This document shows positions 5,581 through 32,988 of a stretch of 64,000 nt of DNA, piece after piece. The translations under genes were made by a program, and so were the position numbers. Each line of letters begins with the position of its first letter. Position 1 is the first letter of the stretch. Below the pieces are notes generated by a model, which did not search any database, had not been told where the DNA came from, and saw only the letters and a program-made list of their open reading frames with translations. The stretch comes from Cliona cf. orientalis (Eukaryota; Porifera; Demospongiae; Clionaida; Clionaidae), in contig OZ005698.1 of NCBI GenBank assembly GCA_963930775.1, positions 744,001-808,000 of the forward strand, written 5' to 3'.

Positions 5581-5674
<94 letters not shown>

Positions 5675-8600
5675 AAATGGTCTAACCAAGCTCACAGCTA
5701 CATCAACGGCACTAACTTCACACTCTTCATCTTGGCTCTACAACTGAATACTGAAGCTATTCCTCAAGGTTTATATAACAAGCCAGATGGCCAAAGACCG
5801 AGACAGACTACAATGGCAGGCCAGCTAGACCAGAGAGTAGGAGGAGTGCCATAACAACCATCAGAATGCAAGCATAACAGAATGATGCCAATGTCGGGCC
5901 ACAAACATGGAAATGGTGATTATATTGACACAGAGGTGGATCAAGTTACAGCTATAATATGTATACTGGTGTGACCATGGCCCCACATAAAGTGTTAGCT
6001 GACAGCTGCTCCTCGGCCCAAGAACAAAGAGTGGTTATCATTCCTCAAAGTTACAGCTGCAGAGAGAACTCTGCCCCCCTATATAAATTTGATTATAATT
6101 ACGGGGGAAGGTGGGAGGTGGGAGAGATTTTTTTTGGGGAAAAACATTATTCCTACGATCCGACCTCAACAAAGAGTGAGGAATGCGCTGTAGGTAGTTT
6201 ACAAGTTCACGGATCAAAGTTTATTACACTCAGTTGATTATAATATACTGCAGCTGCTCATTCGCTCACCAGGTCGGATATTCTTGTCTTTGAGACATAG
6301 AAGATGAAGTTAGGCGATTTCTTGTCACTTGGCATGATGCAAAACTACAGAAAATAAACCAAACAAACATCATACGTAATAGTATTGGTAAAGTCTGGTA
6401 AAGGATCGTCAGTTATGGAGGATCGTACCTTTTTGCCATGGTACTCTACGTTTCTGATCTCGCCCCAGGGGAAGGTGATCTTGGGGGACAGTCGATCGTC
6501 CTGCTCGTAAATGTTCAGCCCAAAGGCATCCACTCCCATCCACAACTGAGAACCCTTCTTATTCTGGGAAGAGAAAAAATATGTATATTGTGTCAAGGAG
6601 ACATCCATATAATTAATTATAAGTAGCTTGGTTGTTTGCATAGTCCATGTTTATCGCTTAGGGGGTGGGGCAAGGGGAGGAGCTAATTATTCTAGTCAAA
6701 ATCCAGGCAGATATGTGACTTGGCCTCTGAGAGTTGATTCATTGACGTGCCTTTATCTCAAAGTAATTGATTCCAAACATCTCCAGATCCTGGGCCACTC
6801 TCAGATACTCAAGCTCCGCCTCTTCCCTGTAGGGGGCGGGGCAAAACAATGTAAAGTCAGGTAGTGAAAATTTTTGACCGTGAGTGAGTAGTAAATAAGG
6901 TGTGTGTTGGGACATAAGAATCTCACTATTTCAGTTTTAGTCGTACTTGGTCTATTGTATATTATATCCATGAAGCCAGAGTTTGGAATTCAACCTTACA
7001 ATACCATACACAATACAAACTGAACTAAACCTGTGTACCACTACAGGAAAGTACCTACGTAGGGCCAAAATGCGACTGCAAGTCACAATCTATGGCCGAT
7101 GGGATGGATGACCATTATAGACAGCTGGGTTCCACTAGTACGACATCTATAACGTTTCTATTAATTAGTGCACACGTTGGTCACAGCTACATGTAGCTAG
7201 TCACTGAGGTGCATTAGCCCTGAGAACCGGCAGGAGGCGGGCATGCGTTTGACAATCACATTACTGGATGTTTTCCCATAAGATCAATCCGAGAATTGGT
7301 CGTTGGAGATTGACTCAAACATTTCTGTATAATGATCTATAAGGACATCTCTGAAATGAGGACACCTCCTTTAATCAGGACACCATGCATGGTCCCAGCT
7401 ACATGCACACAGAAGTGTACAAAACTATCCTTGAAATGAGGCTACCTCCTTCAATCAGGACACTTAAGCTGTCCCAAGGGTATCTGGAATAGAGAAGTTT
7501 CACTACACAATGCATGTACCTGGGTAGTCCCTTGTGCTGCGCATAGTAAGATGTGATTCTTTCTTCCCACATCTCCTGCGTCATGCTGTACTGGTCCATC
7601 ACCTGCAAGGTCATGTGACTGGTTAATTTATTAATAGCTGGTAATTATTCAAGGGGCTTACTCTTTGAGGAAGCAGTTTCTCATTCGATAAGAAGCCAGG
7701 TTGGTATATATTTGGATCAAAATCTCCATACTGTTGGGAGGGGGGGGAATATAATTAAGTCAAAATTTTGTGAGATACGTAGTACCTAATGTGTCTATGA
7801 CAATAAAGTATCATAAGGTTATGTCAACAATAGTATCGCCCCACACACGCACACACACACATGTATACACACATATAATATTATGTCCATGCATGCAGCT
7901 CTCTAGAAAACAGCACATGGTGGGAAAATAGTCCAGGGCCGAGGTCAGCAGGATAATGATGGTTTAGCCTTCGAAAGAAAGACACAACTCTGTCGCCGCT
8001 CACTCGTGCTACTCCTAGCAACGGATTGTTTACGAAAAATTGGACAGCCAAAATAGCTACAGCTGCCGTAATAACAATAAATATTGGAAGTACTTTGAGG
8101 ACTAGAATAATAATATTATACATGTAATATGGCAGTACCAAGCAGCACGCACACACCATGACAAATTTCTGTACTACTAATGGACTGTCTGTATGTCATT
8201 CTAGACAAATAAACCACTGGGCGTACTAATTTACAACTAAAATTAATGTAAAATTATGCAAACAGCTCCCTTACACTCAAGTAGCAATCACTAGCTGACC
8301 CTTATAATTATTGTAACACTGTCTTAAGGAGTAATAATAATATTATTATATCCATCCACATGCACCGATCCACCCACGGCCACCTGTCTCCACCCACACT
8401 CATCCATGCACCCACTCGCAGCCACCACTCTCACCTCAGCCTGAATGGCATAGGAAGCTAGGAGCACAGAGGCCTCCGGGGAACAGTACACTTCCTCAGT
8501 GAGGACTGCCTCCTTGACCTGGAGGTAGAAGAGGTGTTGGGTGATCTCCTGGACTAGCTCCTCTGCCGCGTCCTCCGGGAAGAACTTGGCACGGAACTGG

Positions 8601-10393: not shown

Positions 10394-10812
10394 GGCGATC
10401 AGAGTGCTCACTGCAATCCCGGAGACGTCAACGCTAGACTCTAGCACAGCACACGGAGAGATCCCACCGAATACGGACCGATTTTGGCCGTAAGCTTGTT
10501 GGCTATTTCTGACAAAGGTGAGAACCAAACAAGAATACCGCGGCTAGTTTGTACGTTGGACAATTTCTGCTGACTAAGCACACGTTGACCACACCCAAAA
10601 TTAAAACACCTCCGCCCAAGTCCGTGGGCGTGGCAGTCCGCTTGCGCAATCCATGCGTGCACAATCATTGCGAATTGCGCGGTCGTGGCGCAATGCATAC
10701 CAGCTAGCCCCACCCACCAGCCTTTGCAGCTCACAAATAATAAACTTTGTACATGCCTTGGACCATTCATTTTCTGTCAAATTCTATAGAAAGCTGTTTA
10801 CAAGCCTACGCC
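10394..10812. promoter_or_regulatory. Bidirectional intergenic promoter between merlin and RNA ligase
   Basis: The 419 bp between two divergent start codons must hold both promoters unless 5' exons lie farther out. It is locally GC-rich and contains several TTGCGCAA- and GCGCAAT-like words at 10625-10690. No TATA box was seen. Confidence 0.5.
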
Positions 10813-12467
10813 ATGGCGGTGTCTCGTTCAGTGGAACAAAGCTTCGAATTCGTCGCATACGAGAAGATGGGTCTGTGCACCAACAAATGGGACTCTAGGA
10901 AGGTGGACAGCATCAAGAAATGGGTAGCAATGGAGAAGATACATGGAGCTAACTTCTCTTTCACAGTACCCTGTCGAGGACTAGAACCGACAGAAGCTAC
11001 TAAATCCGGACGTGGAGGTAGAAAGACCAAGGCGGCATCAATGACTGTGATGGTGGCCAGGAGAGGGGGGTACTTGAGAGAGGGAGAGGTGTTCTTCGGA
11101 GTGGAGAAACAGAGAGACTTTCTTGAAGGAGAGAAAGAGAAGGCCAGATGTGTCTGTGAAGCGGTCAGAGAGAGAATGGACACTGACTCTGACAAGATAG
11201 AGGGTGTTACAATCTTTGGAGAACTCTTTGGAGGTTGGTGCTTTGTCATGATTTTAGCTACTAGAGAAAGTAATTACTATATCAGAGGTAGCTATAGCCT
11301 GTATAGACTCCTTCATAAGGAATCCCCTTAACAATGTTAATTGTTGCTCTATTTACATTCTTGTATCTGTGGTATTTAAATCATATCCAGTTGCATCCCT
11401 TATTAGTATCACTACTAAACACTTCTTATTCCACAGGATATTACCCCCACCCGTCAGTTCCACCACATCCTGGAGTGGCAAACGTTCAGAAGGAGGTCGT
11501 CTACTGTCCTGATCTAAAATTCTGTGCCTTTGATGTTGCCATTACTTCATCTCAACAACAAAATAGAAGTATGTTAATTAAGAATCACTTAAATTGACTT
11601 TGTATGGGGCCCTTTTTATTATAATATTAAGAGCCAGGATATGAGGCTAAGTATTTAAAAACAGGCACAAGCTTAATTAATTTTATCATATAACCAAGTC
11701 TGTCATTTACTGCTGTGAAATCTCTTGTTGCAGGATACTTGGACTACGATGTCTGCATGGAACTCTTCAAGCAAAGTGGATTTCTGTACGCAGAACCATT
11801 AGCCACGGGGACGCTACAAGACATGATCAGCTACCCCCTAGGCTTCGAGAGCAAGCTGCCAGCGAAATTCGGTCTTCCTCCTCTCGACAAGCCTAATATA
11901 GCCGAAGGAATTGTCATCAAACCCATTAAGGATGTCTTCGTTGAGAGCAAGAAAGGTCCAAAGAGAGTAATCTTCAAGCGAAAAGTTGAAGGATTTGCGG
12001 AAGTTAAACCAAGAGGTCGCGAGCGTGTTACCAATGGTTATAGGAAGCAAGCAGAACCTACATGGATGCCTAATAATGATGGTCAGGATTTTGAGCTGTT
12101 GCGGTACGAGATGCTCGCACTCATCATGACACAGAGAGTTGTCAATGTGGTTTCAAAACTTGGACGACCCTCCATCAGCGACCCCTCTTCGGGACAAGAG
12201 TCATCCAATACACCTCAGACCCTGACAGAATCACTAGCAGCAATTACAGTCAGTGAAGAGAAGAAGAGTGTAGTCGAAAATGGAGTGGAATGGAAAGATA
12301 TTGTTAAGGGTTTGGTGAAGGACGTGATTGAAGAGCTGGAATCGGAGCATTCTGAGCTGTGGAGCTCGTGTCAGAGAGACGGAGAAAAGACAGGGAAACT
12401 GATGCAAGAAATGAAGAAAGAGTGTATTCAATGTGTAGAAGATTATAAGATATCTCTCACAGAATAA
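10813..12467 (+). CDS. T4 Rnl2-type RNA ligase
   Basis: Three exons, 10813-11233, 11437-11568 and 11734-12467, encode 428 residues. The nucleotidyltransferase motifs appear in order: motif I EKIHGANFSF with the predicted AMP-accepting lysine K42, motif III IFGELFGG (134-141), motif IIIa FCAFDVAI (169-176), motif IV AEGIVIKP (241-248) and motif V RVIFKRK (262-268). Spacing and wording match the T4 Rnl2 family, whose members seal 3'-OH/5'-PO4 breaks in RNA, usually nicks in duplexes. The last 150 residues are acidic and helical and are not recognised. The conserved catalytic residues suggest an active ligase. The RNA substrate is unknown; RNA repair, editing or antiviral roles are all possible. 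Confidence 0.9.
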
Positions 12468-12577: not shown

Positions 12578-12716
12578 ATCGAGAGCATGCAAAGAACTTT
12601 CCCCGCTGTATGCATGTGATCTGTACTGAGGCTATTAAAGGAGAAGTTAGGCGTTCGAGTTCATTCATTTCATCATAAATCTTGCATAGGAATTCTCAGA
12701 GACTTGCCCATCAACG

Positions 12717-13727
12717 ATGCCTCCAAGCAAAGACTGTATGATCGCCAACAGCGATTTCTCAATCAGCGAAGATGACATAGTCAAATTGGAGCCGAAAGTG
12801 CAGCAATTAGTCAAAGAATACAAAACCTTGCCTGCATTCGAGAGATGGTGCGGGTTCCAGGCACCGATCGTATGGCGTAACGTCGCTAAGATGCTCATCC
12901 TTCACGCGATAGCATCGCTCGCACTCTACTACGGACCTAGAGCAACGTGGGGGAGCTGGGTTCTATTTCCTGTTCTCTTCGTGTGCAGTAACTTCGGTGT
13001 GACTGCTGGCGTCCACCGCTACTGGACTCACAAGTCGTACAAAGCCACTCTCCCATGGAAGATTATTCTTATGTGCCTCTATTCCATCAGCATGCAGAAT
13101 GACATACTGGAATGGTGCAGGGACCATCGAGTGCACCATAAGTACTCAGAGACGAGTGCTGATCCCCACAATGCAAAGAGGGGCTTCTTTTTCGCACATA
13201 TTGGTTGGCTCATGATGAAGAAACATCCAGACATCATCATTAAAGGCCGCAATATTGACATATCAGATCTCAAGCGTGACCCAGTTGTGATGTTTCAGCA
13301 TCGTCACTATGCACTTTTAAGTCTAGTGTTTTCCGTTCTCCTTCCAATGCTTATCCCTTGCTATTTTTGGAATGAGAACCCGTGGACAGCATTCGTATTT
13401 CTTGTTGTATTTCGCTACGTGGTGACCCTTCATTCTACCTGGCTCGTGAACAGTGCTGCTCATCTCTGGGGGTCTAGGAACTACGACAAGAACATCAACC
13501 CTTCGGATAATCGTATTGTGAGCTTCGCTGCAATTGGAGAGGGATGGCACAATTACCACCACACCTTTCCCTACGACTACGGCACCAGTGAGTGGGGCCC
13601 AAGAATTAATCTCTCGACTATTATCATTGATTTGGCAGCAGCGGTGGGTATGGTGTACGATCGTAAGCAAGTGTCCCAACAAGCTATCGAGAGAGTTAGA
13701 AAAAGAGTTGGAGACTTATCGTCATAA
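12717..13727 (+). CDS. SCD: Stearoyl-CoA delta-9 desaturase
   Basis: A single intronless frame of 336 residues, the usual length for animal acyl-CoA desaturases. It introduces a cis double bond at carbon 9 of palmitoyl- or stearoyl-CoA in the ER membrane, using cytochrome b5 electrons and a di-iron centre. The histidine boxes are intact: HRYWTH (100-105), DHRVHH (136-141) and HNYHH (278-282), with the extra ligand-region motif NSAAHLWG (245-252). Hydrophobic segments lie at about 55-72, 80-97, 196-218 and 222-240, giving the usual four-span topology. The lack of introns contrasts with the neighbours and may point to retroposition or intron loss. A TATA box lies upstream. Confidence 0.97.
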   Translation: MPPSKDCMIANSDFSISEDDIVKLEPKVQQLVKEYKTLPAFERWCGFQAPIVWRNVAKMLILHAIASLALYYGPRATWGSWVLFPVLFVCSNFGVTAGVHRYWTHKSYKATLPWKIILMCLYSISMQNDILEWCRDHRVHHKYSETSADPHNAKRGFFFAHIGWLMMKKHPDIIIKGRNIDISDLKRDPVVMFQHRHYALLSLVFSVLLPMLIPCYFWNENPWTAFVFLVVFRYVVTLHSTWLVNSAAHLWGSRNYDKNINPSDNRIVSFAAIGEGWHNYHHTFPYDYGTSEWGPRINLSTIIIDLAAAVGMVYDRKQVSQQAIERVRKRVGDLSS

Positions 13728-15097: not shown

Positions 15098-18000
15098 ATG
15101 CCCCTGTGGAGTGTTGAAGAGTGGAGGGTTCGGATCGGGTCGTGCTGGTGTGCCTTCGGTCGACCCATCAACACCAGGTTCACCAGAAACAGAGGCAAGT
15201 CCAGGAGAGTGTTGACTCTGCGTCAGCTACTGACCATGGTGATCATGGTGATGCTACTGATAGTGGCCAATCTGGTGCTATGTGCTATGCACCTCAAAAT
15301 GTCTTCTGGTGAGTCTTATAGTGCATGAAGTTGACATCACTGATTGTGCATTCCCAGGCTCTTTTGGGGAGATCTAGAGAGCCGTATGGACGGTGAGGTA
15401 GCCATGCATGGCCATTAATATTATTGGTTACCCCAGTTCACAGGCGGTGAAGTTTAATGATAGATTAGTGAAACCAATTTCAAAACCACATCACTAACAC
15501 TGTCTATATTATTATAATAATAATATAAATTCTGTATGATGCTAGATACCGGTACGTGATAGGCATATTGAGTTTCATGCACTTGCACCCCCACTATCAT
15601 TTACTATCAAACTGTACCCTTCTATAGCATTGTTTGATGGAGGCGGTAATGGGAAGCTAAGCCTGCTTCGGTTCGTCCTAATCCTCAACATTTCACTTGG
15701 AGTTCTAACTACTGCTGTTCAGACGGTCCATCACAGTGTGTTGTCTTACCAAGCTCAAGTATCTCTCAGGCAATTTTTTGTTGATCTGGCTCACAGCCTA
15801 TGGCTGATTCGCTACTTATTCCAATTTCTGACCTACCCAGGTAGTTAATATCTCAATTGTTGTACTTCCTTGTGCTATATGCGATTAACTAAATTTTTTT
15901 GTTGTGCAGGTTGGCTTATGATAAATTCACTCCAAAATGGAATTACTTCTTTGTTTAAGGGAATTTCCAAGAACCTCATAAAGTGCACACGTGTTCCAGG
16001 ACTTGAATTTCCGCCTGGAAGCCTGAGACTATCACTTGTGATTGTAGTAATGGTTGGAGCTCAGCTGTTTATCTCTGTGTCCATTTCTCGTGCTGTGATT
16101 TCCCTCCTCCTCATGACCTCTGGCGATGTAGAGAGAAACCCAGGACCCACCCAATCTTCTAGTATGCTTCAATATCCCACGTCATGTCAGATTTTGAAGA
16201 TGCTTTACTTTAGTCATTGTAGAATCCAATCTCGTTCGTATTCATTGCTCTCATCAACCATCCCAATATCTTATCAGTTTCTTTGGTTTTACTATGCGAA
16301 GATACTTGTGCCCAGGTTTGTATGTACCAGTAACTGCATTTTGTTTATTGGTATAAATTTAGTTATGCATACCTGTTATTAATTGGCACACAGCTATCAA
16401 GGTCACTGGAACTACTTTTGGTGGGACTGTTTTGCTGGTTCTCCTCCTACAAGCTATGACGGCTGTTCAGACAACCCTGCTTATGAGATCTGGAGATGTG
16501 GAGATGAACCCTGGCCCTGGACTTTACCCTGGTGGGTGGTTGATGCTGAAAGTATGCAGTATAGATTAATTATGTTATTCTCTCTCTCTCTTTCTTGCAA
16601 CTTTTGTTTATTTTTAGATCTGGACTATGATGATGTTGACAGTACCATTATTTTGAGTGAGCACATGATTAATTTACTTACATTGTAGCGTATAGTCGGA
16701 AGATTTGGTAGGAAAGTAAAGTTTTGAGGTCTGCCTTTGTAACCTCCAAATCCCAATATTGAGCTATGATTATCCCTTATTGAATTGCCAAATTAGCAAA
16801 TTTGATTTGCCTATCATAGTCAATTGGACATCACTGCCGCAATACAGCCTCTGTCTCTCCTTTAGCAGGTTAGCCAGATTATAAGATTAATTTGGTCCTC
16901 ACTTTTAATTTGTATTGAGCATGCTCTTCTGTTGGCTCTAAATGTGCACATGATATGTGTAGATAGTTCAGAACCTTATTTAAGAGTCAAGTGTTTGTCT
17001 CTTGATGCATTGTGAATTACAAAGAAAAGATATGTTTCCTTGAAAACACTAACTTTGTGAGAGTCAACACTGGAGTCATCACCACAATCACCATAACCCA
17101 CAATGATTGAAAACAAAACATTTAGCTTGATAATTAGTAATAATCTCATGATAGAACCTACTAACAAAATACGATGGAAAGTCCAGGTACAAAGTGAATG
17201 CACTAGGGGGATATTTTTGGCTCTTCAGTTTTTCACATTTCAGCTTATAATATTAACAGGTGAAGATGATTTCCGTGAAGTGTTCAGGTGTACTGTGGGT
17301 CTTAAACCTTGCTACTATGAGCTTGGAATAGAGCTTGGTTTGCCACCTCAAGCGGTTCAGGACAAAACCGTTGGCAATCCACTGGCTGGCGTCTTGCTTG
17401 CGTGGCTGAATCAACGCTACGACACTGAAAGGTATGGTATTCCTACATGGCGGAGATTGGTGGAAGCAGTGGACAATCCTGCTGGTGGAAACAACCATGA
17501 ACTGGCAAAGACTATTGCTTCTAAACATCCCACAGGTACATAATATTACACCAGTTGTACTTTATCACAATATTTTGTATCATTAGTTCAAGATCAATCA
17601 AAAGAACCTGATGAGGAAAAATCTCCTGAAAGACAAACTGAGAGTGTTACAGTTGAAATTCAACCAAAAGAACCTGATGAGGAAAAATCTCCTGAAAGGC
17701 AAACTGAGAGTGTTACAGTTGAAATTCAACCAAAAGAATCTGATAACGAAAAATCTCCTGAAAGGCTACCTGAAACTGTTAGAGTTCAAAGTGAATCTGA
17801 TGATGAAGAATCTCCTGAAAGGCAGCCTGAGAATGTTACCAGTAAAGATGCATCAGGTATATAGGTACTGAAAGTTGTAGTAATAAAGATTTTTTGACTG
17901 TCAATATTTGCAGTTAACGATTAGTATTGTTTTTGACGCCAATCATTATCAAAATTTAATTGCAGCTGATGCACCTAGTGATGAAGAAGCACACTCATCA

Positions 18001-21000
18001 GATGTGAGCCATGAAGCTGAACGTAAAACGCAGTCCGTGCATATTACATGTGAAGAGTATGTAGGAGAGAATTTGGATGAAATTCTTCAGAGGATACAGG
18101 ACTACCATGGGCTGTGGAAGGTCATCGGTGCTGAGCTCGGCATTGAGGTGGATGTACTCGATATGATTGAGAAAAACTATCAACAAGATATTGATTGTCT
18201 ACATTCATTGACCATACACTTGCCTTACGGTCACGATTCCAGCCGGACATATCAAGCATTAGTCAAAGCCTTTAAATCCGAACGTGCCTCTGATGCAATT
18301 TCAGGTATATAAGTATCAGTGCCTCTTGATGACCATTATCGTAAATATACTGCCGCTATCACACCTAAGGTGACCATTGATATAGTTTCTGTGGGTTGGC
18401 CCAAAAGTGCAGTGAGAGTGTTTTATACTTGTAAGCACTAGCAGCTAAGCTATATTATGTGTCTTTTATCACTTTTCCATAAAAATTGTGAAAAAATAGT
18501 ATGCTTGCAAAGCCTGGTTTAAACTAAAATTGCAAAAGAAAAATTATACTGGCAATTTATCACTTGTGTAGCAATCAATGATGTGCAAACGGCACTTACA
18601 ATGGCTTGGGATTATCATGAAGTGTGGAGGTCTATTGGTGTTGAATTAAACATTGATGAAAGTGTACTTGATAGCATCGAGAAAAGTCACTCTGGTCACC
18701 ACGACTGTCTACGTGCACTCATTGAAGTGTGGCTGGCTGGCAGCAGACTCACTGACGCAGGGAGAGAAACAATGACCAATGCCCTTCAGTCAGTACGTGT
18801 CGCCATAGCTATTGCAGGTACTATTATAGTGAATTTGTGTACAATCTGCTGTGCATGATAATCATCCATCCTAGGGAAGGGATGTGTGCCCCCCCCCCCC
18901 CCACCTATAAACTGTAGGTTTAAAGAAGTCACTCCCTATACAGTGTAGATATTCCATAATATAAATTTATCTGTGTGCATGATATTGTATTGATAGCCCG
19001 CCCAGTGAGAAGTAAAGATCTGAAGAGAGTGTTCAATGTAAAATTGGAGCATTACAGACTATGGAAGCTACTTGGTACGGAACTGGGTATCGATGTGGAT
19101 ACTCTCAATGATATTGAGGAGAATCATAGTGCTGGGAGTCGAAACTGCCTACGTGTCATGATTGACAGTGCTGACCCTAAGATAACACACAGAGCATTGG
19201 CTACTGCTCTTCAGTCAGAAGTTATCACTAATGCTATTGCAGGTATTCTTGCACTAATTTAGTATTAGTTAGTAGGTCAAATGTAAACTATTATATATAT
19301 ATACATGTAGATCCTCCACTGGTAGCTCAAGACTTAGACATACTGTGCAGATGGGAACATTTCAAAATATGGAGAATCATTGGCACAGAGCTAGGGATTG
19401 ATGCAGATACGCTTGATACTTATGAGAAAACAGATCATGACTGCCTGCGTAGAATGATTAGTGAAGCTAAGCCTCCCATAACGCACAGTGCAATGACTAA
19501 GGTTCTTCAATCAGAGCGAATCACCAATGCTGTTGCAGGTATATTTTTATTAGAAGACTAGTTAAACCTCCAAATACTGTTTACAGTAACTCATGCACGC
19601 AGTGTACATTCATACACTGCATGCATGTGACACAATTCAGCATAGGTCAGAGTCCACATTATTATCGCAAAAGCATGATTATGCTTTGTTTTGCTTGTTA
19701 CTGCATGTGGTGACTCTAAAAATAGACATACATGTGGCTCTATCTTGCATGATTGTACATTAAATCATTATTTTGCAGCCATTCTCAACAATATAGAAGT
19801 CAATGAGATTCTTTCATTGGCTGTGGAGCATTATCGATCATGGAAGTCCATAGGTTTGGAGCTGGGTATTGACGGTGCTGCTCTCAATGCCATTGAGAAG
19901 AAATACGTGAATGACCACCGTCGTCTGATCGCCATGATTGAGTTGTGGCATGCCAGTGTTGATCTGAATCCATCACAGGAGGCGATGACCAAGGCTCTTC
20001 AATCTAACCGTGTTACTACTTCTGTAGTAGGTGTGTGCATGCATTACTAGAGTTTGGGTGTGTGGGCTGGGAATTAAATTAATAACTATATATGGCATCA
20101 CTTTTTGCATGCAATAATTCACAGTTCATTATAAAGTTAGATCGACCTCTTAATAATTTTTATCGTGAATGCCAATCAGCAATTGGTCTGCTGTGGTACA
20201 CTCACTGGCGGCCCAAAATGTGACAAGCGCTGTAGTTGAATGATATACCTTGAGACCATGCAGAAATCTGCATCCGGTCCTATCTATGTTCATAGTATAT
20301 TTTGTTTGGTGTTGCAGATTTCACCCCATCACATGGAGAACCATTGCTAGAACAACGCGATTACAGCTGTGACAGTGAGGTTATGGTGGACGGAGACATC
20401 TTTACTTACCCATACTACTGGGACATAGGAAATGTAGCGCTTGCTGTTAAGATCCTGCAATCTTTGACTCGTGCCAAAAATTACTTTGAACACAAAATTT
20501 TGTCCCCTGGTATTATATGTGCAGTTACGATCGGTATAGTTGGACGCGACTATCCTCTTGATATGCAGCCCGGCTGGACAAATGAAGGTATAGGCTACCA
20601 TGCTGACGATGGGAAACTATTCAATGAAAATGGAGCAGGAACTCCATTTGGTCCAACATGCACTACTGGAGATCGTATGGGATGTGGAGTGATCTTTGAG
20701 GATGGGGACTCAGAGTCTTCAGACTATGTAAAGGTGTTTTTCACAAAAAACGGAAAACAAGTTGGTGATATTGTCAACTTTAAGAGGCCTGCTAGTGGTC
20801 AAGGACTGTATCCGTTGATGGGACTTTCAAGTCGAGGTGAACAGTTTCAGTATCTTGGTACATGGCACCATCTTCCCAATGTTTCTCAGGTCTCAGAGCA
20901 CAATAATGAAGAAAGTAAGTGAATCCCGATACCTTTTTTCATATGTATAAATTTGCTTTGGCATTGAACAGTTTAATAGAATCCTAAGCATACTAATGGA

Positions 21001-23765
21001 ATTTCCACCAAAATTATCTTTCAGGAAAAGGCTATGAAGAAGAATTGAATAAACTGTTAGCAAGCGAAGGACATGTTGAACTGGACATATCCAAGGTGAT
21101 CCTCACAGGAGCAGCTGGGAGTGGAAAGACATGTACGAAACTCTTACTCTACAAGCTGCCTCCACCAGTGCAGCGTCAGAGCACAGAACTCATCGAACCA
21201 ATGGATAGAGCTTACATCAAACATGAACTGGCCTATCATGAAGAAGACGACAGTGAATATGAGTGGATTGTGGTGGAAAGTGGCAGCGAAAGTCTGTACT
21301 CAATGCTTGCAGCGACTGTAGACTCGGGGGAATACACTGTGTTGTGTGAGCATGAAGATACTGATGGTATATCCATGGAGAATTTGCCGAGTGTACCCAC
21401 AGATGAAGAATCTGAGTCAAGCTTGCCAAAGTCGCCCACTATCGTACAATCTTCAGACTCAAATTCAAGATCACCTTCTGAACTTAGTAAAAAGAGCACA
21501 CCTAGTTCCAAGAAAGCTGATGGCATGCAAAAGCACATTGAGAGGCAGGACAGTAAGGCAAGGGAGTCACTGTTGATGAAGTTGAAGAACTCAGTAGATC
21601 AGAAAGGAGTGTGTGTGCACAAGGTTCGATGGATTCACCTCGTGGACAGTGGAGGACAGTCGCAGTTTCACGATATATTACCCACGTTCTTACATCACAC
21701 TTCTGTCATAATCTACGTGCTGAAACTTTCAGAACCACTCGATGATCAGCCGTTTGACAACTACTTTGAGGACGGAGAGCGCCTGGGAGAGTCTAGAAGA
21801 TCACACTATGACGTGGAGCAGATTCTTAATGGTGTGATACAATCTGCCTACTATGAGAAGCACAACGTAGCGAATGAAAAACACACTACAAAAATCATGA
21901 TCATTGGAACGCATAAGGACGTACAAGCTGGAGGCGAAAGCATCGATGTAAAGAATTCAAAACTGAAGAAGATTTTTGAGCCATTTGTTGGTTCCAGACA
22001 GCTTGAGGTCCTGTGCCACGGTGACTATAATGCTGACGATATCATTTTCCCTCTCGATGCAATGAAGCGAGATCAGGAGTCCCTCGGCACTGGAAGAGAC
22101 ATCCGTAAACGCATCGTAAGCAAAGGAAGCAAAACTCACAAGGTTCCCATTAGCTGGTTTTTACTCGAGCAAGATTTGAGGAGCGTTGGGGGAGAAGAAA
22201 ACAATGGCGTCATTACAATAGGAGAGTGTACAAAATTAGCCAAAGCAATCAATGTATCAAAATTGAAAAGTGCACTGGAATATTTTCATTCTTTGAACAT
22301 ATTTTTATTCTTTCCACATTCTTCAGTTCTCTCGGAAATTGTGTTCACAGATCCTCAGGTTGTTGTGACGATCGTATCAGCATTCGTGAAAGAAGCATAT
22401 CAAAAAGTAACAGATACCGAGTTCAAAAATTTCAGCGAACGTGGAGAGTTCACAAAATCATTTGTGAAAAGCAAACTCAGCAGATTCCTGGTTCCAGCTG
22501 CACGATTTGAAGAAGCAGAAGTGATTGAACTTTTGAAGATCACCCTTGTCGTTGCACACATCGAAGAAGGACGTTATTTTATGCCATGTGTCTTGCCTCA
22601 CTGCTCACTGGATGAATTTGAAAAAGAAAGAAATGATCTTGAAGTCCCAGCTGTCATTCTCAAGTTGCCTGGTGACACTCACTGTGTTCCACGAGGTTTC
22701 TTCTGTGCTCTCGTGTGTGGTTTGATGAAAAAATGGAAGCTGAGGAAAAAGAAAGGCAAAGAAGTCGACGTGTTCAAGAACTTTGTCCAGTTTACTGTTG
22801 ATGGCTATCGAGTTGTCGTGGCTGATACGTTTTACTACATTGAGATTCACGTATCTGGCTGTGATCCCGACAGGTACATATGCAGGAAAATATATGAAGA
22901 TATCGGGGAAGCACTGAAGGTGGTTGTCAACACACACAACTACAATAATGAGATCGTAGAATCATACAGTTTGGACTTTCTCTGTCCCTGTGGATCAGCA
23001 CCCGCTCATACTGCTCTCATCTTTTCCACTGGAAGGAAGCAAAGACTCAACTGCACAAGGGATGATGATGAGACGTTTAAGCTTGAGAACAAGTTTTTAA
23101 TTTGGCTAGAGGATCCAGGTAATTTTTGAATGCATAGTGATGGTATAGTGTCATCATAAGCTTGTTGATGACGAAAAGGATATTACTTTATGCATAATAT
23201 TTATTATATATTTCGTGCATAATCCTCAATCCTCTTTTTATTAGTTCCCGAGTCCGTGCCACACCCACCAATCTTAAAACAAGAATCTGAATCAAAGCTC
23301 AAAATCAGTAAGCTATCATGACTCATGGGTATGCATTCACATACCATGGCAATCATAATAATAAATAATAATAATATTATTATTATATACTCACACAATC
23401 ATGTACCTTAACAATCCTTGCATTAAATTTTCTCATTGGCAGACTTGGGTGCATTGCTGATACTCAAGTATACAGACAAAGGAGAGAAGAAGAAAGTCCG
23501 GATTATCAACAAAGCGAGTCACAAGTGGAAGGATATAGCCAGCTTGCTCAGTGACGATGCCAACATAACGAGTGTTTTGGAGCAAAAACATCGTGGTGAC
23601 CCCAGTGAATGCTTGAAGGAAACATTCACTGAGTATTTCATTAATAAGAAGCCGGAGGACTATTCCCAGGACTGGGATGGGATGATTGAATTGCTGGATG
23701 ATGTTGGCCTTGAAGCACTTGCTGAAGAAGTAAAACATGCTCTTTCATGTATAACATCAGCCTAA
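15098..23765 (+). CDS. Receptor gene A: TM-2A-2A-multi-Death-SPRY-Roc/COR-Death protein
   Basis: Sixteen exons: 15098-15308, 15628-15840, 15910-16161, 16394-16531, 16618-16656, 17260-17535, 17587-17856, 17966-18304, 18572-18817, 18997-19242, 19311-19538, 19779-20030, 20318-20914, 21025-23118, 23245-23307 and 23443-23765; 1,928 residues. Exons 1-4 encode hydrophobic segments and two 2A peptides (cuts after G220 and G266). Exons 6 and 8-12 each encode a death-like helical module, five sharing an LWKxxGxELGI-type core. Exon 7 is a repeat linker. Exon 13 is a SPRY domain (904-1102). Exon 14 carries a Roc GTPase with GAAGSGKT (1131-1138), DSGGQ and THKD, then a COR-like region. Exon 16 is a C-terminal death-fold domain. 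All internal introns are phase 1. Such parts suggest an intracellular immune or cell-death sensor; the ligand is unknown. I do not recall this exact combination from any described protein. Confidence 0.85.
16095..16148 (+). other. First 2A (StopGo) peptide of receptor gene A
   Basis: Exon 3 ends with a hydrophobic stretch followed by LLLMTSGDVERNPGP, a perfect match to the 2A consensus D(V/I)ExNPG/P. Ribosomes are known to skip the Gly-Pro bond in such sequences, releasing the upstream chain and continuing from proline. The predicted break is between residues 220 and 221. Confidence 0.9.
16465..16518 (+). other. Second 2A (StopGo) peptide of receptor gene A
   Basis: Exon 4 encodes a short hydrophobic run (TVLLVLLLQAM) and then TTLLMRSGDVEMNPGP, again a full 2A consensus. 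It lies 46 residues after the first site. The predicted break is between residues 266 and 267, releasing the death-SPRY-Roc receptor with an N-terminal proline. Confidence 0.9.
17599..17850 (+). repeat. Four tandem 60-66-bp coding repeats in exon 7 of gene A
   Basis: The exon repeats an acidic unit close to KEPDEEKSPERQTESVTVEI. The first two units are almost identical at 66 bp each; the last two are shorter and diverged. It forms a flexible linker between death-like modules. Copy B keeps only about one unit (QPKEPEHVSDAG). Confidence 0.85.
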
Positions 23766-23772
23766 GCATCAA

Positions 23773-24265
23773 AGTGACTTAACATGGCTGCATGATTCAG
23801 TATGAAAATTGATCTTATCTCTAAGCTTCTGATTTTTGTGGAACTACATAATATTATGATATTATATTATTATGTGCATATAATTAATCAAAAGCACTCC
23901 CCATTTCCTATCTATATTATTATTATTATTATAATACACGGTCAATTCTATGACTATACCCTTATGCTGGTAAATCAATATTCCATATAAGGGCATGCAC
24001 AGTACTATAATTAATTTTTATAGAAGCTGCTCAGTTTACATAATAATTTATTATGCCCAGAGGTCCGTACATACCAATAGTATTAAGAACATTATTATTT
24101 TGCATAATTCATAATATCATAACTCAGTTGATATTATAATATCGAAAACAAAGATCTTGGAGATCTAGTAGCTACATTCAAGCTTGTCCCACACTATTGT
24201 TACAGAATCTACACCATATCCTCCATATAATATATTATTATAATAATTATGTCCACTAAGTATAG
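23773..24265. other. AT-rich spacer at the centre of the inverted duplication
   Basis: About 490 bp of very AT-rich DNA with many TATTAT/ATAATA words. No gene, RNA or recognisable element was found. It separates two convergent 3' ends and must hold their polyadenylation regions. Confidence 0.6.
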
Positions 24266-24292
24266 ATGCTTAGGCTGATCTTGTACAAAATG

Positions 24293-27200
24293 TCACGAAA
24301 GAGCATGTTTTACTTCTTCAGCAAGTGCTTCAAGGCCAACATCATCCAGCAATTCAATCATCCCATCCCAGTCCTGGGAATAGTCCTCCGGCTTCTTATT
24401 AATGAAATATTCAGTGAACGTTTCCTTCAAGCACTCACTGGGGTCACCACGGTACTTTTGCTCCAAAATACTCGTTACATTAGCGTCTTTGCTGAGTAAG
24501 CTGGCTATGTCCTTCCACTTGTGACTCGCTTTGCTGATAATCCGGACTTTCTTCTTCTCTCCTTTATCTGTGTACTTGAGTATCAGCAACGCACCCAAAT
24601 CTACAATGATTACAAATTAAAGCAATGTATTGCTTGATTAGGCGTATAATTATCATTGTGTGTGTGTGAATGCATAATCAACAGCTTACTGATTGGTGCA
24701 GGTTCTTGTTTTGCGGTTGGTGGGTGTGGCACGGACTCTGGACTAGGAACTATAATAATGTATAAAAGAGGATTGAGGAATCAATGAGGATTAATTATTA
24801 TTCTTTCAAAATGCTTGTGATAAAATTTTGCTAGTTTCAAAGATTACCTGGATCCTCTAGCCAAATTAAAAATTTATTCTCAAGCTTAAACGTCTCATCA
24901 TCATCCCTTGTGCAGTCGAGTCTTCGCTTCCTTCCAGTGGAGGAGATGAGAGCAGTATGAGCGGGTGCTGATCCACAGGGACAGAGAAAGTCCAAACTGT
25001 ACGATTCTACGATCTCATTATTGTAGTTATGTGTGTTGACAACTACCTTCAGCGCTTCCCCAATGTCTTCGTATATTTTCCTGCATATGTACTTGTCGGG
25101 ATCACAGCCAGATACGTGAATCTCAATGTAGTAAAACGTATCAGCCACGACAACTCGATAGCCATCGACAGTAAACTGGACAAAGTTCTTGAACACATCG
25201 ACTTCTTTGCCTTTCTTTTTCCTCAGCTTCCATTTTTTCATCAAACCACACACGAGAGCACAGAAGAAACCTCGTGGAACACAGTGAGTGTCACCAGGCA
25301 ACTTGAGAACAACAGCTGGGACTTCAAGATCTTTTCTTTCTTTTTCAAACTTGTCCAGTGAGCAGTGAGGCAAGACACATGGCATGAAATAGCGTCCTTC
25401 TTCGATGTGTGCAACGACAAGAGTGATCTTCAAAAGTTCAATCACCTCTGCTTCTTCAAATTGTGCAGCTGGAACCAGGAATCTGCTGAGTTTGCTTTTC
25501 ATAAATGATTTTGTGAACTCTCCGCGTTCACTAAAATTTTTGAACTCAGTATCGGTTACTTTTTGATATGCTTCTTTCACGAATGCCGATACGATCGTCA
25601 CAACAACCTGAGGATCTGTGAATATGATTTCCGAGAGGACTGGAGAATGTGGAAAGAATAAAAATATGTTCAACGAATGGAAGTATTCCAGTGCACTTTT
25701 CACTTTCGATACATTGATTGCTTCGGCCAATTTTGTACACTCTCCTATTGTAATGACGCCATTGTTTTCTTCTCCCCCAACGCTCCTCAAATCTTGCTCG
25801 AGTAAAAACCAGCTAATGGGAACCTTGTGAGTTTTGCTTCCTTTGCTTACGATGCGTTTACGGATGTCTCTTCCAGTGCCGAGGGACTCCTGATCTCGCT
25901 TCATCGCATCGAGAGGAAAAATGATATCACCCCTTTTATAGTCACCGTGGCACAGTACGTCAAGCTGTCCGTAATCAACAAATGGCTTAAAAATCTTTTT
26001 TAGTTTTGAATTCTTTACATCGATGCTTTCGCCTCCAGCTTGTACGTCCTTATGCGTTCCAATGATCATGATTTTTGTAGTGTGTTTTTCATTCGCTACG
26101 TTGTGCTTCTCATAGTAGGCAGATTGTATCACACCATTAAGAATCTGCTCCACGTCATAGTGTGATCTTCTAGACTCTCCCAGGCGCTCTCCGTCCTCAA
26201 AGTAGTTGTCAAACGGCTGATCATCGAGTGGTTCTGAAAGTTTCAGTACGTAGATTATGACAGAAGTGTGATGTAAGAACGTGGGTAAGATGTCGTGAAA
26301 CTGTGACTGTCCTCCACTGTCCACGAGGTGAATCCATCGAACCTTGTGCACACACACTCCTTTCTGATCTGATGAGTTCTTTAACTTCATCAACAGTGAC
26401 TCCCTTGCCTTACTATCCTGCCTCTTGTAAATACTCTCTTGTTTGTTATCTTTATTTGAAGGTGTGCTGTCCTGACTAAGCTCGGAAGGTGATTTCAACT
26501 CCGAAGAGTGTGTGATTGTTGGTATTTTTGGCTCTGATTCTGCACCCATTGATTTATTTGTCAATTCCTCCACTGTTGCATGTATCTTTGATCCAGCATC
26601 AATATCTTCACTTTCAGCTGACATTGCATATTCTCCTGAGTCCACGGTCGCTGCAAGCATTGAGTACAGACTTTCGCTGCCACTTTCCACCACAATCCAC
26701 TCATATTCACTGTCATCTTCTTCATGATAGGCCAGTTCGTGTTTGATGTAGGCCCTGTCCATTGGTTCAATGAGTTCTGTGCTGTGACGCTGCGCTGGTG
26801 GAGGCAGCTTGTAGAGTAAAAGTTTCGTACATGTCTTTCCACTTCCAGCTGCTCCTGTGAGGATCACCTTGGATATGTCCAGTTCAACATGTCCTTCACT
26901 TGCTAACAGTTTACTCAGTTCCTCTTCATAGCTTTTTTCTGAAAGATAATTTATAAATAATGACATGTGTAATATAATATTATATGAGCTCAACATACTC
27001 TCTTTGGATTTATTCTCCTCTGCTTGGGAAACTGAAGATGAGGGAATAATATTATGCTGCCAGCAACCAAGGTACTGAAACTGTTCACCTCGGCTGCTGA
27101 AGCCCATGAACGGATACAGTCCACTCTCAGGTCTCTTGAACTCGACGAAATTACCAACTTGCTGTCCATTTTTGGTGAAGAAGACCTTCACATATTTTGA

Positions 27201-30200
27201 AGAATCACCACCCTCAAATATCACACCACATCCTATACGATCTCCAGTAGTACAGGTAGGACCAAACATTGTTCCATTTCTGTTTTCATTAAAGAGTTTG
27301 CCGTCATCGACTTGGTAGCCGATTCCTTGCTTGTCCCAACCAGGCTGTCTATCAAGGAAATAGTTTTGTCCCACCACACCGATTGAAATCGCACATATAA
27401 TACCACGGGACAAGATTTTGTGCTCAAAATAATTCTTAGCAGGTGTTATCGGATGTAAAATTTTAACTGCACATGCATCATCACCACCGCCCCAGTAGTA
27501 TGGGTAAGTAAAGATGTCCCCATCCACCATGACGTCTTTCTTGCAGCTATAATCACCATGTTTTAGTGACGATGCACCGTGTTTTGACATACCGGCATTA
27601 TCAGAGACCGTGTCTGGAATGAAAAGTGCATGAATATATATACAATGATATGGGAATGTGCCACAATAATAATATTATATGCCAGGCGGACAGTGATAAC
27701 AATAATTATTGTGTATAAAGGGAGTACCTCTGATGGGATATTTACCTAACACACAATAATAATTGTTGCTACAGGGCAACTAATCTACTTCACTCCTACA
27801 ACAACTATAATAACAACAGTTACTATACAACATGCAGCATAATATTATTATTGTGCTATTATTTAGTTATATCCTTGTCCCCATGCATGTATTGAGGTAC
27901 CCACCTAAAGTAACTCGGTTAGAAGAAAGAGCTGTTTCCATCGCCTCACGAGATGGCTTCAAGTCCACACGGCGGTGCCACAGCTCGATCATGGCGATCA
28001 GACAACGATGGTCATTCACGTATTTCTTCTCAATGGCATCGAGTGCAGCACCATCGATACCAAGCTCTAAACCTATGGATTTCCAACATCCAGAATACTT
28101 CCTTGCTTGATTGAGAATTGTGCTCATCTCCTTGTCACTGAGAATAGCTGCAGTATTTGTGCACATATATATACCAGTAGTATGGTATTAACTTTGACCA
28201 TACATCTCCAGTATACTTCAGTGTTCTACACTTATATACCTGCAATAGCATTGGTGACACGCTGTGATTGAAGAGCTCTGGCCATTGCATCGTGTGTTAT
28301 GGGAGGTTTAGCTTCATCGATCATTCTATGCAAATAGTCACTAGCAGTAGTAGTTTGACCCCACTCGATGGAATTAAGAGTATCTGCATCAATGCCCAGC
28401 TCTTCACCAATGACCTTCCATAGCAAGTAATGTTCCCACTTCAGTTTGAACCAAATCTTTAAATTACTAGCTGCCAATGGAGGATCTAAGCACAGACAAA
28501 CATAATAAGTATTATAGAACATTGAGCACCAATAACACACATGGGGAGCAAATTTTAACACTGAGAAAGATATACCTGCTATACCGCTAAGGATGGATTG
28601 TGTTCGAAGAACTCGTTTCATCACTCCGCGTGTTATGGGAGGCTTGGTGTTATCAATCATGGCATGCAGGCATTTCCGGTCATCTCCATTATGCTCCTTT
28701 TCAATGGCATTAAGTGTGTCCATATCAATGCCCAGTTCTGTTCCGAGAACCTTCCATAGTTCCACTGGCACATTAAACAATCGTTCTACATCTTTGCTCG
28801 TTATTGGGATGACTAGTAATGAACAAACATAATAAAATTAATTATGAGAGTTAGATAACCAAAGCATAATAATATTTTATACCTGATAAGGCTCTGACGA
28901 CACGTACTGACTGAAGAGCATCAGTCATTGCTTCTCTCGCTGCATCTCCAGTGAGCTTAGCACCAGCCAGCCACACTTTAATGAGCTCATGGAGGCAATC
29001 GTGACTGCTAGAGTGATTTTTCCAAATTGTACCCCTTACGCTTTTTTCCACCTTCAATTCCCTACCAAGGGATAGCCATACTTCATGATAATCCCTCGCC
29101 AATGCAAGTATCGTCTGTACATCACTGATTGCTAATTACCAGGGGCAAAATGGTAATCAAGATTGTGATGAAAGACAAGAGCATGTATATACCTGCTCCT
29201 GCATCAGAGACATGTTCAGGTTCTTTTGGTTGAATTTTAACTATAGATGCAATGATGGGTAGCATAGTCAATAGCAGATTGTAGTCCACATATTCTACAA
29301 GATAAACTACCTGAGGTGTGCTTGGAAGCGATAGTCTTTGCCAGTTCATGGTTGTTTCCACCAGCAGGATTGTCCACTGCTTCCACCAATCTCCGCCATG
29401 TTGGAACACCATACCTTTCAGTGTCGTAGCGTTGATTCAGCCATGCAAGCAAGACGCCAGATAATGGTTTGCCAACGGTTTTGTCCTGAATGGCAGTCAG
29501 CTCTTGAGGTGGCAAACCAAGCTCTATTCCAAGCTCATGGTAGCAAGTCTTAAGATCCACAGTACACCTGAACACTTCACAGAAATCATCCTCCTCTGTT
29601 GAACAAATTAATCAAAGTTGAATTAGCTACAATTTAAGAAAATTTTATATTATATTCACTCACTCAAAGTAATGGCATTGTCAACATCGTCATAGTCAAG
29701 ATCTATTGATGTGTATGGGTGTGTGTGTATCTGCATTAAATTTCGAGAGAGAGAGAGAAAGAGATTGCAATTAACATTTATTACATACCAGGATACAGTC
29801 CAGGGCCAGGGTTCGTCTCAACATCTCCAGATCTTATGAGCAAGGCAGCCAGACTCTGATCGGCCATCATAGCTCGTAGGAGGACAAACATCAAAACATT
29901 TGCACTACAAGTAGTTCCAGAGGCTTTTACAACTGCTGAATAATAAAAACAAGAGTACACAATCATTTATATTGTGATGAAGCAATGCATACCAGAAGAT
30001 TGGGTGGGTCCTGGATTTCTCTCTACATCCCCAGAGGTCATGAGAAGGAGAGAAATCACAGCACGAGAAATGGACAGAGAGATAAACAGCTGAGCTCCAA
30101 CCATTACTACAATCATAAGCGATAGTCTCAAGCTTCCAGGCGGAAATTCAAGTCCTGGAACACATGTGCACTTTATGAGGTTCTTGGAAATTCCCTTAAA

Positions 30201-30871
30201 CAAAGATGTAATGCCATTTTGGAGTGAATTTATCATAAGCCAACCTGCACAACAATTTATTTAGTTAGCACAAGGAAGTACAACAATTGAGATATTAACT
30301 ACCTGGGTAGGTCAGAAATTGGAATAAGTAGCAAATCAGCCATAGGCTATGAGCCAGATCAACAGAAAATTGTCTGAGAGATACTTGAGCTTGGTAAGAC
30401 AACACACTGTGATGCAGCGTCTGAACAGCAGTAGTTAGAACTCCAAGTGAAATGTTGAGGATTAGGATGAACTGAGTGCTAATGAATCGATGTGGTTTTG
30501 AAATTGGCTTCACTAGTCTATCATTAAACTCCACAGCCTGTTGGGGTAACCAACAATATTAATGGCTATGGCTACCTCACCATACGGCTCTCTAGATCTC
30601 CCCAAAAGAGTCTGTGAATGCACAGTCAGTGATGCCAACTTCATGCACTTGAAGACTCACCAGAAGACATTTTGAGGTGCATAGCACATAGCACCAGATT
30701 GGCCACTATCAGTAGCATCACCATGATCACCATGGTCAGTATCTGATGCAGAGTCAACACTCTCCTGGACTTGCCTCTGTTTCTGGTGAACCTGGTGTTG
30801 ATGGGTCGACCAAGGGCACACCAGCACGACCCAATCCGAGCCCTCCACTCTTCAACACTCCACAGGGGCAT
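24293..30871 (-). CDS. Receptor gene B: 2A-2A-multi-Death-SPRY-Roc/COR-Death paralogue
   Basis: Minus-strand exons matching gene A: 30661-30871, (exon 2 remnant, low end 30303), 29993-30244, 29789-29935, 29664-29702, 29311-29595, 29193-29240, 28883-29131, 28576-28812, 28240-28485, 27905-28147, 26999-27613, 24848-26938, 24690-24749 and 24293-24600. The counterpart of A exon 8 is absent and the linker exon is 48 bp instead of 270. Exon 2 has lost its 5' part and acceptor; skipping it joins exon 1 to exon 3 in frame, giving 1,676 residues. Roc motifs (GAAGSGKT, DSGGQ, THKD), SPRY, four repeated death modules plus the first one, and the C-terminal death-fold domain are intact. The Ser-rich linker inside exon 14 differs strongly from A while the GTPase core is almost identical. 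It is probably functional; if exon 2 is essential it could be a recent pseudogene. Confidence 0.8.
29802..29855 (-). other. Second 2A (StopGo) peptide of receptor gene B
   Basis: Exon 4 of copy B ends SLAALLIRSGDVETNPGP. The 2A core is canonical although the 25 residues before it differ widely from copy A, which suggests selection on the core. Confidence 0.9.
30006..30059 (-). other. First 2A (StopGo) peptide of receptor gene B
   Basis: Exon 3 of copy B carries LLLMTSGDVERNPGP, identical in the core to copy A and preceded by the same hydrophobic region. Confidence 0.9.
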
Positions 30872-31047: not shown

Positions 31048-32988
31048 ATGGGGAGACTGAGAAAGAAGGTAATCATCTATATTTCATCGATACCATATGA
31101 TGGTGTTTAATACCAGCATGTTAAACTCAGGGCGAGAGTGGCATAGCCACGAATTACATCTCCAGAAATCAGGCTCTCAAGAAGCTTCAGCTGTCTCTTC
31201 CAGACTTTAGGTTGGTCGATAATAAATTATGTATGAACATTAGCATAGAAGCTATATATATACCTTGCTGCCTGTATATAAGCCCTGGCACTGTCCAAAA
31301 GTATATTGCATGGCCAATGTCATATAGAAATGTATTATCCAACTATGTTTTTGCCATACAGACGTCTATGTATCTTGAAGGGGATCTACCCACACGAGCC
31401 CAAGAGCTTCAAGAAGGTGAACAAAGGTAGCACAGCCTACAAGACCTACTACTATGCCAAGGACGTCCAGTATCTGGCCCACGAGCCACTGCTGGTCAAG
31501 TTCAGGGAGTTCAAGGCGTTCATGAAGAAGGTGAAGAAGGCCTACCACAAGGAGCAGGACTCCACTGTGAAGAAGCTCTACGAGAACAAGCCCATCTATA
31601 CCCTGGACCATATTGTCAAGGAGAGGTCAGCCAATCGTATTGGTTAATCCGTAGATCTACACTTTAAATTTTTTTCAAGGAGATCTGCCATGGTATATAT
31701 ATTTTTTGTTTGGTTGCCTAATATTTTGTGCTTATCCAACTTACATATGTATACATATATGTACGTTCATACATGTATGTCGTATATTATAATATGCTAT
31801 TACATGTAGGTATCCAACATTCATAGATGCCCTGAGGGACATGGATGATGCTCTCTGCATGCTGTTCCTCTTCTCCACTCTGCCACAGCACAGAAGGTTG
31901 CAGGTGAATATCCATGATTTGTATGATTTGGTTAAATCTCCTGGATGCATCCTGATTTTGTGCAAGTCATCAGAATAAATTCTTAAGAGTAGTGACGTGA
32001 TTAAACATCAAAAGCCGGGTTTCTAAAGGCAGGTTTTTTAAGAGCAGCACTGCTCTATATATATACTCTGCCGCTCTTTAGTGATTTGTCTGCTGATGTG
32101 ATTTGCTCTTCAGTGATTTGTCTGCTGATGTGATTTTTGTGTTGCTCTGCAGGCTCATGTGGTACACAACTGTAAGCGGCTGACGGTTGAATTTATGCAT
32201 TACATCATCGAGTCTCGGTCCCTGCGGAAGGTCTTCCTCTCCATCAAGGGAATCTACTACCAGGCAGAGGTTGAAGGTCAAACCATCACCTGGGTAGTCC
32301 CATACCAGTTCTCACAAGAGGTGAAAATTACATTCCCGATACCAATACTTTGTTGTATGCTAGAGTAGGTCCTTCAAACCTTCATATTGCCACAATTTGA
32401 TCTTAAAGATTGTTGTTGGATGATAGTGGTGACTTCACTTTCTTTGCAGATGCCCACTGACGTTGACTTTAGGGTGATGTTGACTTTCGTGGAGTTCTAT
32501 TCCGCTCTCATGGGCTTCATGAACTTTAGACTCTACCACTCTCTTAATCTCAAGTATCCTCCACAGGTAGATTGGAATAATACAGTGCTCCCCCTCCCTT
32601 CAAATCTCCCCCTCCCCCACTAAACTAAAGCTTTGTCTTCATTTTTGGATACAGATAGAGGGATTGCCCCCACCGTCCTCAGAAGCCACGCCCACCCAAG
32701 TAATTGATCCTGATGCCGTTTTCAGTGAGGAGGTGGAGGAAAATGCCGAGGTATGCATAAAAAATAGCGGATCATGTGATGTGGTGCCGGGTCATGTGAC
32801 CTACTATAGCTCCTCTGCCCCTTCTGATTGGCCAGTTTTCTCGTGCCAAATGTCAGATCTGTACCATGAGGAGAGAGCATTGTTGCGTATTGTCACAGGC
32901 TTGGCATTTCTGCTGCGTTTCTCTCTGTCATGACACGCAGTAGATTATTTGTTCCCTGTGATACACACACTCTCTCTCTTGCTCTCTT

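Follow-up and report, generated by a model that had tools for sequence, protein, structure and literature searches.

Roco proteins such as DAPK1, LRRK2 and MASL1 carry a Roc G domain followed by a COR domain, and DAPK1 ends in a death domain. AP-GTPase-COR proteins have been considered in the context of conflict systems, as their switches (PMC8195603). The sea-anemone proteins NG1 and NG3 are arranged as LRR-GTPase/COR-TIR and kinase-Death-Roc/COR-TIR, respectively (PMC5094078), and brown-algal LRR-ROCO genes make up an expanded family of candidate immune receptors, with repeat units on separate exons and exon shuffling (PMC11378527). Among receptors built on NACHT, those of D. avara include 25 NACHT-LRR genes that carry DEATH at the N-terminus (PMC12909245). 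In sea-urchin NLRs an N-terminal 2A peptide acts as recoding element and as signal sequence, as shown in mammalian and plant cells, and about 35% of these NLRs (85/241) have such leaders (PMC4981915). The locus compared here with these systems resides in a window of 64,000 nt from the sponge Cliona cf. orientalis (OZ005698.1, hereafter C10, positions 744001-808000; the searched genome spans 216.8 Mb in 149 contigs). Positions 15098-30871 of the window are occupied by two convergent paralogous genes, A (+ strand) and B (- strand), which we read, with a probability of about one half, as a pair of receptor-like Roco genes of chimeric make-up, having the front of Death-NACHT genes, the back of a Roco gene, and extra death domains and a SPRY domain in between.

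Both genes feature, in this order, a hydrophobic leader, two 2A motifs, a row of death-like modules (six in A, five in B), a SPRY domain, a Roc-COR region and a terminal death-like module. They share with Roco proteins the order Roc then COR, and differ from them in the added 2A leader, death array and SPRY domain, in a long acidic insert within Roc, and in that the scanned exons match neither kinase nor ankyrin nor LRR; RING, B-box and TIR were not matched there either. With the Death-NACHT receptors (NLRD) of sponges they share the front part, the leader and first death domain having homologues at the front of this genome's NACHT genes; Roc-COR and SPRY stand where NLRD have NACHT and LRR, neither of which was found in A or B. 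In sea-urchin NLRs, too, a death-fold receptor follows an N-terminal hydrophobic leader with D(V/I)ExNPGP at its end (PMC4981915), but A and B have two serial 2A motifs and a Roco rather than a NACHT body. As in NG1 and NG3, a non-bilaterian animal combines Roc-COR with domains of immune signalling; in contrast, A and B carry SPRY, a term absent from the text of PMC5094078, and match neither TIR nor kinase. Brown-algal LRR-ROCO genes vary at LRRs under diversifying selection (PMC11378527), whereas the death modules and SPRY of A and B are under purifying selection on average.

Gene A (15098-23765) is made up of 16 exons and codes for 1928 aa, gene B (30871-24293) of 15 exons and codes for 1746 aa; the stop codons are 527 bases apart. 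Both outer limits are ATG codons of the gene models, and the inverted pair proposed at this place by an earlier note on the same DNA is real. Exon joins are GT/AG sites picked by hand. Both models read through, over 1928 and 1746 codons, without stop or frameshift; all internal junctions are in phase 1 in both genes, and 12 of the 14 introns of gene B measure 57-98 nt. SPRY and Roc-COR of gene B lie inside one uninterrupted frame of 945 aa, and are therefore joined without any splicing assumption. The inverted arms match far above chance (1590 nt at 96%, 363 nt and 332 nt at 90%, 295 nt, 269 nt and 210 nt at 96%), with a further arm of 381 nt at 74% over SPRY. Since the arms differ by 4-28%, an assembly palindrome is ruled out. 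The identity of A and B is 96% in most of the leader and of Roc-COR, 90-92% in exon 6, exon 16 and the start of exon 14, and 72-82% in exons 9-12 and SPRY.

Exon 1 (A, 15098..15308; B, 30661..30871) contains the start codon and the leader, whose residues 44-62 in A reach a mean Kyte-Doolittle value of 2.86. Exon 2 (A, 15628..15840; B, 30303..30512) adds in A a second hydrophobic segment; its 5' edge is unlike between the two genes, the boundary is uncertain, and coding constraint is not clear. The first 2A motif is found in exon 3 (A, 15910..16161, GDVERNPGP; B, 29993..30244), the second in exon 4 (A, 16394..16531, GDVEMNPGP; B, 29789..29935, GDVETNPGP), each exon holding in A a hydrophobic segment as well. 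The second motif differs between A and B only at the free position of GDVExNPGP, exon 4 as a whole being 62% identical. A short linker, exon 5 (A, 16618..16656; B, 29664..29702), follows. The two 2A peptides per gene reported earlier are thus present as motifs, and the pattern occurs at 105 sites genome-wide, at none when read backwards. Arrays of 2A sites were noticed at C13:231854-349020, C18:5667610-5802070, C18:7131420-7508269 and C5:174703-1102551. At another locus, L050, a 2A motif precedes a PHD-like stretch rich in cysteine; to the eye, this stretch resembles a non-LTR retroelement frame and not a receptor.

The order of these cassettes was monitored across the genome, using reversed-order counts as control, which are independent of the partly guessed chromosome lengths of a rotation control. 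Only the best matches were scored (64 of 539 for Roc-COR exon 14, 150 of 290 for COR-A, 103 of 490 for NACHT, 150 of 212 for exon 6, 150 of 377 for exon 16), so that counts are lower bounds; 100 of the 105 2A sites were used, and 103 of 104 NACHT pieces, the second piece of one gene having been dropped. The leader exon has 47 matches, the A/B pair included: 26 are followed by a listed 2A site within 4 kb, 41 by an exon 6-type death exon within 6 kb, and none shows the reverse order in either case. Among the listed matches (pair included), 20 of 129 exon 6-type exons have NACHT behind them at a distance of up to 4 kb, and the reverse order was not observed. Leader, exon 6 and NACHT occur in order at six loci among the listed matches, with an exact 2A motif at two (C10:337310 and C10:350469) and without it at the other four. 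Within 12 kb of the 100 listed 2A sites, NACHT lies downstream of 6 and upstream of 2; Roc-COR follows 10 of the sites within the same distance (set against 150 COR-A and 64 Roc-COR places), 4 of these 10 being the sites of the A/B pair, and the reverse order was not observed. Judged by homology, A and B have their leader and first death domain in common with the front of NACHT genes elsewhere in this genome, and they possess an N-terminal death-fold domain of the NLR type. NACHT itself was not matched in the scanned exons (E up to 1), and the 104 listed NACHT matches include neither A nor B. The likening of the locus to an NLR with Roc-COR replacing NACHT, put forward in the earlier note, is near-literal because of this homology of leader and first death domain.

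The first death-like module, exon 6 (A, 17260..17535; B, 29311..29595), is the homologue of the death exon preceding NACHT in other genes. Pfam Death matches 5 of 8 aligned members of its family (best E 5.3e-6) and neither window copy alone; the family profile matches FADD with E 0.0027. Exon 7 is an acidic linker in A (17587..17856), where a 66-bp unit is tandemly repeated in 3 copies (17594-17790), and a short linker of just 48 nt in B (29193..29240). The module of exon 8 (17966..18304) is found in A only; the gap between exons 7 and 9 is just 61 nt in gene B, and the corresponding interval of 715 nt in gene A includes exon 8 and is not an intron length. The remaining modules are exon 9 (A, 18572..18817; B, 28883..29131), exon 10 (A, 18997..19242; B, 28576..28812), exon 11 (A, 19311..19538; B, 28240..28485) and exon 12 (A, 19779..20030; B, 27905..28147). 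Exons 8-12 match FADD by profile, in support of a death fold, and exon 12 of A, which scores 20.3 bits with Pfam Death against a cut-off of 22.6, has a predicted fold aligning with the death domains of FADD and ankyrin. A row of five to six death modules had been anticipated, and holds. After a linker, exon 15 (A, 23245..23307; B, 24690..24749), the genes end with exon 16 (A, 23443..23765; B, 24293..24600), which carries the terminal module and the stop codon. The profile of this module is closest to the PIDD death domain (E 0.001), and its fold search gave no confident match, a death fold remaining compatible. The death-like nature of the terminal module, announced from the start as a death-fold domain, is moderately supported.

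SPRY is encoded by exon 13 (A, 20318..20914; B, 26999..27613, in the same open frame as exon 14) and matched strongly in both genes. Its closest solved relatives are SPRYD3 (E 1.2e-33) and RanBP10/9, and no TRIM chain is present among the five solved-structure matches at E 0.01. The comparison with TRIM proteins made at first reading was consequently rejected, the scanned exons showing no RING or B-box match either. SPRY was matched at 28 places in the genome. Two of these, the copies of A and B, have a listed Roc-COR at most 15 kb away on the same strand, and none of the 28 lies within 15 kb of a listed NACHT; set by eye against 149 listed Roc places, no SPRY place was within 15 kb on the same strand. 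Among the matches listed, the pairing of SPRY and Roc-COR appears to be unique to A and B. Eight SPRY matches are found within one open frame of 2683 aa at C3:11902271-11910229.

Exon 14 (A, 21025..23118; B, 24848..26938) encodes a Roc GTPase with a long acidic insert between P-loop and switch, unlike between A and B, and COR directly behind Roc. The P-loop (GAAGSGKT), D-GGQ and GTHxD residues, the motifs of a G domain, are invariant in 16 aligned members of the exon 14 family, all of which match Pfam Roc at E up to 0.1, COR-A being matched in 5 of the 16 at the same level. Individually, the window copies reach 16.5 and 15.5 bits with Pfam Roc, against a cut-off of 27, and are not among the 149 listed Roc places. 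COR-A of gene A scores 36.2 bits in the genome search, against a cut-off of 35.3, and 33 bits by hmmscan; COR-A of gene B scores 32.1 bits by hmmscan and is not among the genome-search matches listed. The Roc-COR assignment is sustained by hhalign, in which the exon 14 family aligns with a pair of frames of canonical Roc-COR (L007 and L008) from this genome. The alignment (probability 96.7, E 4.5e-10) covers 310 columns, which reach from the switch region to COR and leave out the P-loop part. Against solved structures the exon 14 sequence alone gave no match, and the family profile gave weak Rab matches (E 0.03).

The 64 scored exon 14 matches, pair included, reside for the most part on contig C3 (55), clustered mostly near 3 and 10-11 Mb; the 62 outside the pair are 28-32% identical. 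At C3:11.81 Mb, a relative features a 2A motif 2.3 kb ahead of Roc-COR, with a death-like exon between; its Roc-COR shares one frame of 857 aa with a death domain below threshold, and no SPRY match is listed there. The back of A and B, made up of Roc-COR and the death-like module, is part of a large expansion of Roco genes. Very large clusters of related Roc-COR exons extend over C3:2.95-3.81 Mb and C3:9.93-11.24 Mb, and the one upstream stretch sampled there (L070) has exons that by eye appear death-like. Four of 103 listed NACHT places (C4:2353469, C17:5818273, C8:841401 and C4:2440417) are candidate single-exon NACHT-Roc-COR fusions, with COR-A about 3 kb downstream and a shared open-frame size of 1426-1453 aa; one has a 2A motif 2.5 kb upstream.

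Divergence between A and B is mosaic. The synonymous difference per site is 0.17 at the ends (exons 1, 3, 6, 14 and 16; 117.6/677.5) and 0.56 in the middle (exons 9-13; 188.7/336.8; Fisher p 1.8e-35), a jump pointing to conversion at the ends or replacement of the middle. The nonsynonymous difference is 0.04 at the ends and 0.21 in the middle; it stays below the synonymous one in exons 3, 6, 9-14 and 16, and not clearly in exons 2, 7 and 15. Purifying selection has acted on ends and middle alike, as an average. Diversifying selection on the middle, again as an average, was rejected (0.56 against 0.21, ratio about 0.37); synonymous and nonsynonymous changes are both high there, so that old divergence or exchange suffices. 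Exon 16 of A is identical at 307/323 positions to an exon at C10:857287, located beside other death-domain exons, and at 70/74 in the 3' flank; exon 16 of B is identical at 297/308 to a copy at C16:6090180, and at 66/72 in the flank. The two exons are identical to each other at 285/308 positions, their flanks at 44/60. The last exon of each sister is nearer to another locus than to the other sister. The idea that the terminal exon is common to a caspase gene, as read by eye at C10:857-862 kb, was dropped: Pfam finds Death and a sub-threshold DED at this place but no caspase, and none of the 47 caspase matches falls there. In 4.5 kb around the C16:6090180 copy (L073), only exon 16 and a scrap of exon 15 clearly match, and the copy may be a solo cassette or a relic.

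The genes flanking the pair look ordinary: homocysteine S-methyltransferase (205-885), an ERM-like helix (sub-threshold, 4974-5678), T4 Rnl2-type RNA ligase (10744-12467), fatty acid desaturase (12690-13727) and pescadillo (31282-31644).

If A and B are chimeric receptors, ribosome skipping at the two 2A motifs would release a soluble body (about 1662 aa in A, 1478 aa in B); where skipping fails, the leader would keep this body tethered to the membrane, one gene thus serving two locations. SPRY, with the death array, would sense a ligand or partner; Roc-COR would act as the switch, by GTP exchange and dimer rearrangement, in the role that NACHT has in NLRs; the death array and the terminal module would seed a death-fold assembly, to which adaptors or effectors with death domains may be recruited. 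For A and B we infer skipping, by analogy with the sea-urchin NLR leaders, as well as ligand sensing, switching and signalling, and an immune or cell-death role. It may be proposed, tentatively and at some distance from the reading of the architecture itself, that they exemplify a new class of animal receptor, in which a Roc-COR GTPase is the switch instead of a NACHT ATPase, whole exon cassettes are swapped with NLRs and further genes carrying death domains, and the balance of membrane-tethered and free protein depends on two consecutive 2A sites.

The same proteins may have a non-immune role, as DAPK- or PIDD-like regulators of cell death or stress in the animal itself, in which SPRY would bind a partner from within. 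RanBP9-type SPRY domains dock internal partners, and the nearest relatives of the A/B SPRY are SPRYD3 and RanBP9/10; the PIDD-like profile of the terminal module, the purifying selection on average, and the fact that only two SPRY copies among the matches listed are near Roc-COR agree with such a role as well. On the other side, the front cassette is common to NACHT genes, the back comes from an expansion with at least 62 other copies, mostly clustered, and the terminal exon is nearer to other loci than to the sister copy, features which are frequent in conflict genes and prove nothing by themselves. We consider this a serious rival, possible rather than likely.

It is improbable that each arm holds two or more separate genes, leader, 2A and death array being transcribed apart from SPRY, Roc-COR and the terminal module. 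Exon joins rest on sequence inspection, an intron of 603 nt precedes exon 6 in gene A, and the boundary of exon 2 is uncertain; yet the junctions agree in phase throughout both copies, nearly all gene B introns are short, a single frame of B holds both SPRY and Roc-COR, and the relative at C3:11.81 Mb repeats the succession of 2A, death-like exon and Roc-COR within 2.3 kb. That A and B are relics or non-functional copies spread by recombination, as the inverted arrangement, the mosaic divergence and a terminal exon common to other loci might suggest, is highly improbable in the face of intact reading frames, nonsynonymous differences far below synonymous ones in the large exons, and a second 2A motif altered only at its free position within a much changed exon 4.

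The pair had been presented as a candidate undescribed system. This may apply to the exact architecture, which is unique among the matches listed for this genome and absent from the literature searched, and not to its kind, the parts and the general plan being already known. Open full texts, of partial coverage, yielded neither a Roc-COR/SPRY/death architecture nor 2A peptides in sponge receptors, a result giving weak support to novelty. If A and B are the chimeric receptors proposed here, an early-branching animal would build NLR-like receptors on two nucleotide switches, NACHT and Roc-COR, behind one shared front cassette, and would show immune receptor classes arising by exon exchange. What Roc-COR does in the cell death of animals would become testable beyond DAPK and LRRK2, and with the 2A leader ribosome skipping would be employed genome-wide on receptor genes outside the sea urchins.

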